This document shows, in pieces, positions 5,587 to 22,416 of a stretch of 64,000 nt of DNA; positions within the stretch are counted from its first letter, which is position 1; each line of letters opens with the position of its first letter. This stretch comes from Bacteroidales bacterium (lineage in GTDB: Bacteria; Bacteroidota; Bacteroidia; Bacteroidales; JAADJA01), in contig JAGVPB010000008.1 in the NCBI GenBank assembly GCA_020052415.1, forward strand, positions 1 through 64,000, written 5' to 3'. Both the position numbers and the translations under genes were made by a program. Below the pieces are notes generated by a model. The model had not been told where the DNA came from and did no database searches. It saw only the letters and a program-made list of their open reading frames with translations.

Positions 5587-5611
5587 CGACTTTTAAACGA
5601 AATCCTTATTC

Positions 5612-19962: not shown

Positions 19963-20610
19963 ATGTTAGGCGATGTTTTATTAATTCAGGAAAAGCACAA
20001 AATTGCCGGTGAAGAAATCATCCAGCGCATTTTGAAGCAGAAGAAGGATAAATTTATTGTAGCCATTTCCGGCGAATCGGGTTCCGGCAAGTCTGAACTG
20101 GCTCACGTAATTGCCAAAGGACTCCGAAAGTTTGGCATCATGGCGAAACCATTACACACCGATAATTATTACAACTCAGATCCACTTAAAAGAAAAGCCT
20201 GGCGGGTTGAGCAGGGAATTGAAAATGTGGTCGGATACAATGAGTATCTCTGGGACGATATTCACAAAAACATTGATGATTTTAAGAACAACCGGTTATC
20301 CGAAATGCCCTGTGTTGATCTTGTAACAGAACAGGTTGACAGGCTGATCACCGATTTCAGCACGGTGGATATGCTGGTTGTTGATGGTTTGTATTCAATT
20401 AAAACTGATCATGTCGATCTAAGGATTTTTATCGAACTCACCTACCTTGAAACAAAGGAAAAGCACACCAAAGATGCCCGAGGCAAGGAAGTGATGGATG
20501 AGGTCAGGTGGGCGATTTTAGGCCAGGAACATGAAATGGTTCAATCCTTGAAGGCGCTGGCGGATATTTTAATTACAAAAGATTATAAGGTTGAAATAGT
20601 AAAGAAGTAA
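19963..20610 (+). CDS. Uridine kinase-like P-loop kinase
   Basis: A 215-residue cytoplasmic protein with Walker A GESGSGKS at 37-44 and the HTDNYYNSD segment that matches the uridine kinase/phosphoribulokinase superfamily, followed by an acidic VVDGLYS strand. It is 40 bp downstream of the HAD-GH65 gene on the same strand, so it is likely co-transcribed with sugar genes. Its substrate is therefore uncertain: uridine, or a sugar or sugar phosphate of the pathway. Confidence 0.7.
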   Translation: MLGDVLLIQEKHKIAGEEIIQRILKQKKDKFIVAISGESGSGKSELAHVIAKGLRKFGIMAKPLHTDNYYNSDPLKRKAWRVEQGIENVVGYNEYLWDDIHKNIDDFKNNRLSEMPCVDLVTEQVDRLITDFSTVDMLVVDGLYSIKTDHVDLRIFIELTYLETKEKHTKDARGKEVMDEVRWAILGQEHEMVQSLKALADILITKDYKVEIVKK

Positions 20611-20711
20611 TCATTCAAATTTTTTTCGACTTCTTAAATATTCTTTTGGAGTCATTCCTTAGCCTTTTTAATCACATCCTCATTCAATTTCAATGTTAAT
20701 TTTGAATCCAT
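20611..20711 (-). pseudogene. Remnant of a toxin-antitoxin operon
   Basis: On the minus strand an ATG at 20711 opens MDSKLTLKLNEDVIKKAKE and stops at 20652. This matches the N-terminus of DUF6364-type antitoxins (family recalled from memory). Overlapping its stop, a second frame (20655-20611) reads MTPKEYLRSRKKFE, which looks like the C-terminus of a PIN toxin. The middle of both genes appears to be deleted. The promoter box and a perfect palindrome remain upstream (20724-20741). Confidence 0.5.
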
Positions 20712-20723
20712 TTTATAAATTAA

Positions 20724-20741
20724 TTTGTACGTACAAAAATA
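20724..20741 (-). promoter_or_regulatory. Palindromic operator and promoter box of the toxin-antitoxin remnant
   Basis: TTTGTACGTACAAA (20724-20737) is a perfect 14-bp palindrome. It overlaps the minus-strand -7 box TATTTTTG (20741-20734), 22 bp before the remnant ATG. This is the arrangement expected for an autoregulated antitoxin promoter. Confidence 0.5.
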
Positions 20742-20829
20742 AACTTTAAGTGCGTATTATAAAAGTTTCGAATATCATTTTTATACAAATTTCATATATT
20801 ATTAAAAATTCAACTATACCAATAGTAAT

Positions 20830-20837
20830 TACATTTG
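20830..20837 (+). promoter_or_regulatory. Possible -7 box of the second GH13 gene
   Basis: TACATTTG, matching TAnnTTTG, 13 bp before the start codon. It suggests this gene can be transcribed apart from the upstream cluster genes. Confidence 0.35.
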
Positions 20838-20850
20838 TAAATTAATTTCA

Positions 20851-22140
20851 ATGATGTATAAAAGAAAAATAACCACAGTTGAATGGATCAGGAATCAGGT
20901 CATCTACGAAGTAAACCTCCGTCAATACACAAAAGGCGGAACTTTCCGGGAATTTTCGGAACATCTGCCAAGGTTGAAAGAACTCGGAGTGGGTATTCTT
21001 TGGTTCATGCCGCTTCAACCCATAGGTAAAAAGAACCGGAAAGGATCTCTTGGAAGTTATTATTCCATTCATAACTACACACAGGTTAATCCGGAGTTCG
21101 GAACTTTGGAGGAGTTTAAAGCTTTAGTCCAAAAGATTCATGATTTAGGAATGAAAGTTATCATTGACTGGGTAGCAAACCATACCGCATGGGATCATCA
21201 CTGGACTATTGATTATCCTGACTTTTATGACCGGAATGAAAACGGGGATTTTTTACCTCCGAATCCCGAGTGGACGGATGTGATCCATCTTAATTACAGG
21301 AATCCGGCCCTGTGGTATGAAATGATCGGGCAAATGGAGTTCTGGATTAGAGAGGCTGATATAGATGGTTTTCGTTGCGACATGGCTCATCTGGTTACGA
21401 CCCTTTTCTGGAATCATGCAAGATATCATTTGGATGAAGTCAAGCCGGTTTTCATGCTTGCCGAAACCGAAAACCACGACCTCCTTGAATTTGCTTTCGA
21501 TGTAATCTACAACTGGAAACTTTTACATGGATTGAACGACCTTGCCGCCGGAAAGATCAAAGCAGATCAGTTATTAAGTTTTGCTAAAAATGGAGTGGAT
21601 TACCTTCCGGCAGGTGTTGCCGAACTCAATTTTACCGAGAACCATGACGAAAACTCGTGGAATGGATCTGCGATAGAACGCCTCCACTATTTCCTGGAAC
21701 CTTTGACCGTTCTCACTTTTACTTTACCCGGAATGCCTCTTATTTACAGCGCACAGGAAGCAGGTAATTCCAGGAGACTCAGTTTTTTTGACAAGGGTGA
21801 GATTGAATGGAAAGAAGATAAAATGACGCGGTTATATCAGAAACTTATCGACATTAAAAAGAGGAATAAATCACTGTGGACAGGGCAGGAGGGAGGAGGA
21901 TTCGAGATCCTTGAAACAAAGAATCCAGATAACATTGCTGCTTATAAAAGAGTTTGTGATGATCATGAGGTGATTGTGATAACTAATTTGAGTAATGCAG
22001 AAATCTCGTTGAGCCTAAAGCAAGGAATTGCCGGATCAAAATACCTGGATGTTTTTTCCAATCAGCAATTCAACAATTCAACAATTCAACAAATTTCAAT
22101 TCCACCTTTTGGCTATAAGGTTTACGAGAAGCTGCAATGA
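20851..22140 (+). CDS. Cytoplasmic alpha-amylase-family hydrolase (GH13)
   Basis: A 429-residue GH13 protein without signal peptide. The barrel starts at VIYEVNLRQYTKGGTF; catalytic residues are Asp177 (DGFRCDMAH), Glu205 (LAETEN) and Asp266 (ENHDENSW), so it should be active. The compact size and GVGILWFMPLQPIGKKNRKG are typical of intracellular maltodextrin-active enzymes in Bacteroidota. Near the C-terminus a short repeat (CAATTCAACAATTCAACAATT, about 22070-22090) encodes QQFNNSTIQQ, an apparent insertion of a sequence also present at about 16755. It is probably a maltodextrin hydrolase serving the phosphorylase. Confidence 0.85.
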   Translation: MMYKRKITTVEWIRNQVIYEVNLRQYTKGGTFREFSEHLPRLKELGVGILWFMPLQPIGKKNRKGSLGSYYSIHNYTQVNPEFGTLEEFKALVQKIHDLGMKVIIDWVANHTAWDHHWTIDYPDFYDRNENGDFLPPNPEWTDVIHLNYRNPALWYEMIGQMEFWIREADIDGFRCDMAHLVTTLFWNHARYHLDEVKPVFMLAETENHDLLEFAFDVIYNWKLLHGLNDLAAGKIKADQLLSFAKNGVDYLPAGVAELNFTENHDENSWNGSAIERLHYFLEPLTVLTFTLPGMPLIYSAQEAGNSRRLSFFDKGEIEWKEDKMTRLYQKLIDIKKRNKSLWTGQEGGGFEILETKNPDNIAAYKRVCDDHEVIVITNLSNAEISLSLKQGIAGSKYLDVFSNQQFNNSTIQQISIPPFGYKVYEKLQ

Positions 22141-22191: not shown

Positions 22192-22416
22192 TTATTTTGT
22201 AATCCATTGTTTAGGAAGCCCGGCAGTTTTCAATATTTTATTAGCTTTTTCTAATTTATCAGGGAATAAAACAATGTTATCATAATTGTTCAGGGATTTT
22301 TCAATCCGAACTATAGGAATCTTCCGCTTTTTTATTTCTTGTATAATTTTCATATAGTAAAGATAAAAGGTTATCAATTTGTCACCAGAGGACAACGGAT
22401 ATTTAGGTAATTTCAT
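22192..22416 (-). CDS. Small hypothetical protein downstream of the MFS gene
   Basis: A 74-residue frame whose ATG overlaps the MFS stop by 4 nt (ATGA), which suggests coupling. An internal ATG at 22353 would give 53 residues (MKIIQEIKKRKIPIVRIEKS) and has a TATCTTTA promoter-like box just upstream, so the shorter form is equally possible. The sequence is basic and mixed alpha/beta with no motif that I can name. Confidence 0.5.
   Translation of the reverse strand: MKLPKYPLSSGDKLITFYLYYMKIIQEIKKRKIPIVRIEKSLNNYDNIVLFPDKLEKANKILKTAGLPKQWITK

Follow-up and report, generated by a model that had tools for sequence, protein, structure and literature searches.

The window, the whole 64,000-nucleotide stretch of Bacteroidales DNA that was analysed, carries a short minus-strand element between two protein-coding genes (Table 1). 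Direct reading of the minus strand of 20611-20741 gives, in order, a -7 box, TTTGTACGTACAAA, an ATG codon, MDSKLTLKLNEDVIKKAKE, a TGA stop codon and, overlapping this stop, MTPKEYLRSRKKFE. The coordinates and letters of the first-pass annotation were correct, as was its placement of this relic between a kinase-like and a GH13 gene, both neighbours being recognised by Pfam (PF00485 and PF00128, respectively). A GH65/HAD fusion gene lies upstream in the same neighbourhood and, taken with the kinase and the GH13 gene, makes it look like a maltose-type cluster. A reading frame of 74 amino acids (window 22192-22416, minus strand), situated between the GH13 and transporter genes, has no Pfam match.

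Table 1. Features of the relic and its neighbours (window coordinates).
Feature	Position	Strand	Remarks
DUF6364 antitoxin remnant	20652..20711	-	First 19 codons, MDSKLTLKLNEDVIKKAKE, and a stop created by the putative junction
ATG of antitoxin remnant	20711-20709	-	Read from the sequence
Stop codon TGA of antitoxin remnant	20654-20652	-	Overlaps ATG 20655-20653 of the toxin remnant
PIN_3 toxin remnant	20611..20655	-	Last 14 codons, MTPKEYLRSRKKFE, and stop
Stop codon of toxin remnant	20613-20611	-	Abuts the kinase stop codon, 20608-20610
Putative deletion junction, G-AAT-G	20653..20657	-	Four DNA matches end at 20654
Operator box 2, ACGTA	20728..20732	-	Core of palindrome 20724-20737
Operator box 1, ACGCA	20751..20755	-	Lies 23 bp upstream of box 2; differs in one base from ACGTA/ACGGA, the common forms
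-7 promoter element TATTTTTG, TAnnTTTG type	20734..20741	-	Read from the sequence; consensus from PMC7366714
Palindrome TTTGTACGTACAAA	20724-20737		Perfect, 14 bp
Kinase, PRK/uridine kinase family (PF00485)	19963..20610	+	Convergent with the relic
GH13 alpha-amylase-family gene (PF00128)	20851..22140	+	Divergent from the relic

On the evidence of its sequence, the segment 20711-20652 represents the opening 19 codons of a DUF6364 antitoxin, in agreement with the earlier assignment of a minus-strand antitoxin N-terminus. It matches PF19891 (DUF6364) with 27.4 bits, just above the cut-off of 27.3 (E = 2e-5), and all 19 residues are found at their respective positions among 93 distinct intact N-termini, the best single one of which is identical at 16 of the 19. 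A complete DUF6364 antitoxin, of about 80-85 amino acids, is absent from the relic, where 19 codons are followed by a stop. At the DNA level a query of the 131 bases found some match in 32 of 393 genomes, with up to 80% identity to intact loci from the -7 box to codon 19 (query bases 1-88). Four of the DNA matches stop at query base 88, which is position 20654 and corresponds to the junction. A search with PF19891 covering the genome itself and 59 relatives gave DUF6364 matches in 22 of the 60, above the cut-off in 21, and in 10 of the 16 congeners; the relic is the sole match in its own 4.67-Mb genome.

Intact DUF6364 genes of the type seen in the relic are mostly followed by a PIN-domain toxin, the C-terminus of which resembles IPVMTPDEYLKS. 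The one intact toxin that was scanned matched PF13470 with 64.1 bits and PF01850 with 34.1 bits. A profile of toxin tails was prepared from the 106 of 116 distinct full-length toxins with the tail motif, the other ten being left out. On this profile the relic tail scores 20.8 bits, compared with a toxin median of 22.8, a value reached by no other of 310,005 background 8-mers (six frames; 231,846 distinct), among which the relic tail itself is counted twice owing to overlap between the window and one locus. The length from the M of the motif to the stop is 14, within the 9-17 observed for intact toxins. Profile score, strand, order and motif-to-stop distance are thus all in accord with the PIN-toxin-like C-terminus overlapping the antitoxin stop that had been proposed, and 20655-20611 is, judged by these sequence features, the last 14 codons of a PIN_3 toxin, all that is left here of the PIN domain. 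Two DNA matches to the tail only (G241 and G354) lie outside any PIN toxin and so were set aside and not counted as support. One of them sits in a protein ending LTKEYLRGLKK, which we take to be GxxExxY-like.

Intact operons of this type were collected in two ways. An order-wide promoter pattern, TTTGYACGTR-N(5-35)-ATGRANDCNAARYT, was searched in 393 genomes of the order and located 53 places in 46 of them; the reversed control pattern had no match in the genomes listed. A full-length antitoxin and toxin are present at 44 of the 53 loci. The other nine comprise three cut by contig ends and six that are damaged or have no recognisable PIN toxin, the relic in the window included. A narrower pattern applied to a collection of genome contigs yielded 76 stretches with 66 intact pairs, the remaining ten being three that are not DUF6364, three that are cut and four that are damaged or lack a PIN toxin. 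Since both samples, which overlap, were selected by the promoter, they cannot tell how frequently the operator is lost first. Defence-system models gave no match for one intact DUF6364/PIN pair.

Several of the damaged copies have lost internal sequence. The copy at G011:C3 lacks 295 bp of the toxin when compared with the nearly identical G016:C303, its antitoxin is whole and the break carries a 7-base repeat, ATGTGAT. At G133:C2 a 16-codon antitoxin start continues in frame into the central part of a toxin; the toxin part is recognised by our custom toxin profile (E = 2.5e-9) and the fused frame has no Pfam match. The same strand also carries an intact DUF6364/PIN pair, approximately 870 bp from this fusion (at 5601). 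A second and more decayed relic occurs within the genus at G003:C124:19712-19762, where box 2 of the operator described below, MDMDTKLTIKTNK and a stop are left. With this second relic and the two other internal deletions, such decay is seen to recur. The G003 relic directly adjoins a flavodiiron-like gene (PF19583 ODP) at its start codon, and this gene may by now be transcribed from the old promoter. Copies of that gene elsewhere in the genus (13 other genomes) are at most 43% identical to it, so the locus is not comparable with theirs.

The perfect palindrome that the first-pass annotation placed over the -7 box is indeed there, with TATTTTTG at 20741-20734. The exact word TTTGTACGTACAAA occurs once in the window and in none of 100 shuffles, and with up to two mismatches it is found in 31 of 100. 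Perfect 14-bp palindromes are no rarity (the window has 12, with 5.7 expected and up to 12 in 60 simulations), and it is therefore the placement of TTTGTACGTACAAA, not its perfection, that constitutes evidence. Within the genus TTTGYACGTRYAAA has matches in 9 of 17 genomes. By our reading these are 16 distinct sites, six of them, including both relics, ahead of DUF6364 starts and ten away from such starts, some of the latter inside reading frames.

The 14-bp palindrome was rejected as the operator since a 23-bp two-box register describes the sites better. The claim that the locus kept its operator holds, but the conserved element is a pair of ACGTA-type boxes rather than the palindrome. In its outer arms the palindrome consists for the most part of the TTTG of the -7 box and of A-rich sequence; given that the conserved element is the two-box register, the full 14 bp are in part a coincidence of this TTTG and the A's downstream.

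The two-box register was apparent in a protein-selected and in a promoter-selected sample. The former comprised 20 of 33 PF19891 match rows, 13 having been dropped as short, broken or belonging to another subfamily. TTTGnACGT is present within 90 bases upstream of 15 of these 20 DUF6364 genes and missing from five, and ACGnA-N(17-19)-ACGT, which allows a looser spacing, is found upstream of 14; in 300 shuffles the means for the two patterns were 0.11 and 0.17, respectively, and the count was at most 2. The promoter-selected sample consisted of 112 loci with a full-length antitoxin, after seven of 119 without one had been dropped and identical promoters merged. At 90 of the 112 the best upstream box lies exactly 23 bp away and has at least four of the five ACGTA bases. 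Upstream boxes are mostly ACGTA or ACGGA, with C at the variable base in three of the 112, and in the intact relatives the second box abuts the TAnnTTTG -7 box. On the box statistics of both samples, the DUF6364 operator most likely consists of two boxes of the ACGTA type, placed around the promoter with a spacing of 23 bp, both of which the antitoxin would bind. The relic keeps the register as ACGCA-N18-ACGTA, and its operator score of 30.8, compared with a median of 37.3, is above that of 19 of the 112 intact loci. In the G003 relic box 2 alone is kept, and the score is -6.0.

According to PMC7366714, the -7 TAnnTTTG and -33 TTTG elements are the Bacteroidota promoter consensus, and the same paper reports that no -33 motif was found in F. 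johnsoniae. The -33 region of the relic reads TTT; the third base is G at 63 and T at 22 of the 112 intact loci.

The genome that carries the window has three TANNTTTGYACGTR sites. Only the one in the relic is connected with the start of an antitoxin gene, and the genome gave no further antitoxin promoter with this motif. At G000:C77:131013 of this genome, TATTTTTGCACGTA lies approximately 40-50 bp before a gene that, from its sequence, we presume to be ParA-like, with no DUF6364 gene nearby.

We know of no characterised member of DUF6364, and the name was found in no paper of the literature searched. A model of the antitoxin from an intact relative, based on 48 homologues, has pLDDT 70.9 and pTM 0.36, a middling quality; the monomer has helices at 11-23 and 28-44 and no strand. 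The best structural rows are ribbon-helix-helix repressors, with Z up to 6.2 over 44 residues, a value under the safe level of the tool, and Foldseek gave no significant match to the model (best E = 0.82). By sequence the similarity to CopG reaches only E = 0.27, interleukin-10 chains, which are surely chance matches, ranking equal or better, and the NCBIfam RelB/ParD model gives 17.1 bits against a cut-off of 60. The intact relatives of the relic share a PIN toxin with VapBC-type systems such as FitAB, in which the antitoxin is a ribbon-helix-helix protein; their own antitoxin may be of this kind.

Autoregulation is described in the review PMC4803016 as the paradigm of type II operons. The review also reports that Kis-Kid has two palindromes, of which one covers the -10 region and the other lies upstream of -35, and the arrangement seen here is similar in having two operator regions, so placed. 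Kis-Kid differs in that its antitoxin is of another family, whereas the relic has two short boxes 23 bp apart and a -7 element of the Bacteroidota type. The nearest counterparts are the DUF6364 (PF19891)/PIN_3 (PF13470) pairs of the Bacteroidota, which have the same promoter, two-box operator, antitoxin start, toxin tail and gene order as the relic; the latter differs in lacking approximately 570 bp between the ends, and neither protein can be made from it.

We consider it very probable that the relic is a decayed DUF6364/PIN_3 operon that has kept its outer ends and operator and has had about 570 bp deleted. The operator, the ATG and both pieces are in the same order and on the same strand as in the intact operons, which occur in the genus and in the order and carry the two pieces at the opposite outer ends of one operon. 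This supports the earlier proposal of a decayed two-gene operon with both ends kept. At 91 loci the number of bases between the positions homologous to the two sides of the junction ranges from 282 to 624 with a median of 571, the minimum being the already shortened G011:C3 copy, and about 570 bases are thus missing from the relic relative to intact pairs. The first-pass annotation had further suggested a single internal deletion. This is the simplest reading of the order, the strand and the lost middle, although no intact parent was found at the site.

The history may be pictured as follows. A type II DUF6364/PIN_3 operon would once have occupied the minus strand immediately after the kinase stop codon. 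By analogy with type II antitoxins, its antitoxin, probably a ribbon-helix-helix protein, would have bound both ACGTA boxes and blocked the promoter. A deletion would then have taken out approximately 570 bp, from antitoxin codon 20 up to the last 14 codons of the toxin, perhaps by way of a short match such as AAT at its two ends. Promoter, two-box operator and leader would have stayed behind together with 19 antitoxin codons and the toxin tail, a remainder from which neither toxin nor repressor could be made. The putative repeat at the junction, of two or three bases (GAAT on the antitoxin side with AATG or ATG on the toxin side), is indistinguishable from chance. In itself the relic is a case of ordinary decay, and the module is a known one. 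A useful by-product of its analysis is a clear and testable two-box operator for the uncharacterised DUF6364 family.

Other explanations of the locus were considered. The antitoxin start and promoter might be a true remnant and the 14-codon tail a chance open stretch, brought there by a deletion into unrelated sequence. The tail is short, the DNA matches to it only are not in PIN toxins, and the G003 relic keeps a promoter and an antitoxin start without a toxin piece. We nevertheless regard a chance tail as very unlikely, since its profile score is unmatched in the 8-mer background and strand, order and motif-to-stop distance all fit those of a toxin. It is scarcely credible that the palindrome is the site of a GH13 regulator and lies next to an antitoxin fragment by coincidence; it does lie approximately 115 bp upstream of the GH13 start codon, but in many other genomes the same element is found at this position ahead of DUF6364 genes.

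A different possibility concerns what the relic does at present. Judged by its sequence, the promoter could be active and unrepressed, running antisense into the 3' end of the kinase and damping its expression. The score of the operator and promoter lies within the intact range, the stop codons of the kinase and the relic abut, no terminator-like site was found in 20400-20950 and the genome, which has two PIN_3 matches, contains no DUF6364 match elsewhere. The TTG expected at -33 reads TTT, however, so that this element looks weakened, and a good promoter would also be explained by a recent deletion. We therefore judge such activity to be unlikely. Were it true, a sugar-utilisation cluster would have gained a regulatory element from a dead toxin-antitoxin module.

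The kinase-GH13 site was compared across the genus. The kinase has a match in 16 of the 17 genomes and an orthologue of at least 78% identity in 11, both counts including the genome itself; in the ten congeners with the orthologue the identity is 78-86%. GH13 follows the kinase in six of these ten, with gaps of 74 (G014), 301 (G003), 679 (G012), 717 (G005), 720 (G007) and 1006 nt (G010). The shortest gap is thus that of G014, which has the most similar kinase. In G011 the 1926 nt after the kinase hold other reading frames, and in G006, G016 and G015 there is no GH13 gene in the fetched stretch, which for G016 ends 1.3 kb on. No DUF6364/PIN pair lies next to the orthologous kinase in the stretches fetched from the ten congeners, so an intact pair at the same place in relatives was not found and we infer the ancestral state of the site.

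When DUF6364, PIN, PemK and RHH queries were compared with the six gaps using tblastn, strong matches were obtained only for RHH and PemK, in three of them. These gaps (G012:C10, G005:C75 and G007:C98) contain an RHH_3 antitoxin and a PemK toxin (PF12651 and PF02452) in the orientation opposite to that of the relic; the assignment was made by scanning the G005 pair, to which the other two are 77-86% identical. The presence of the relic and of a different, RHH_3/PemK pair in the same gap suggests that, within the genus, toxin-antitoxin modules entered this site on at least two occasions. One intergenic spot thereby holds different modules in related species, and one module type is seen at several stages of decay. 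The 1006 nt gap of G010:C118 contains repeated GAACCCCGAAGGGGTTCAATATGAAT-like units and, on our impression, may hold the remains of a transposase-like frame.
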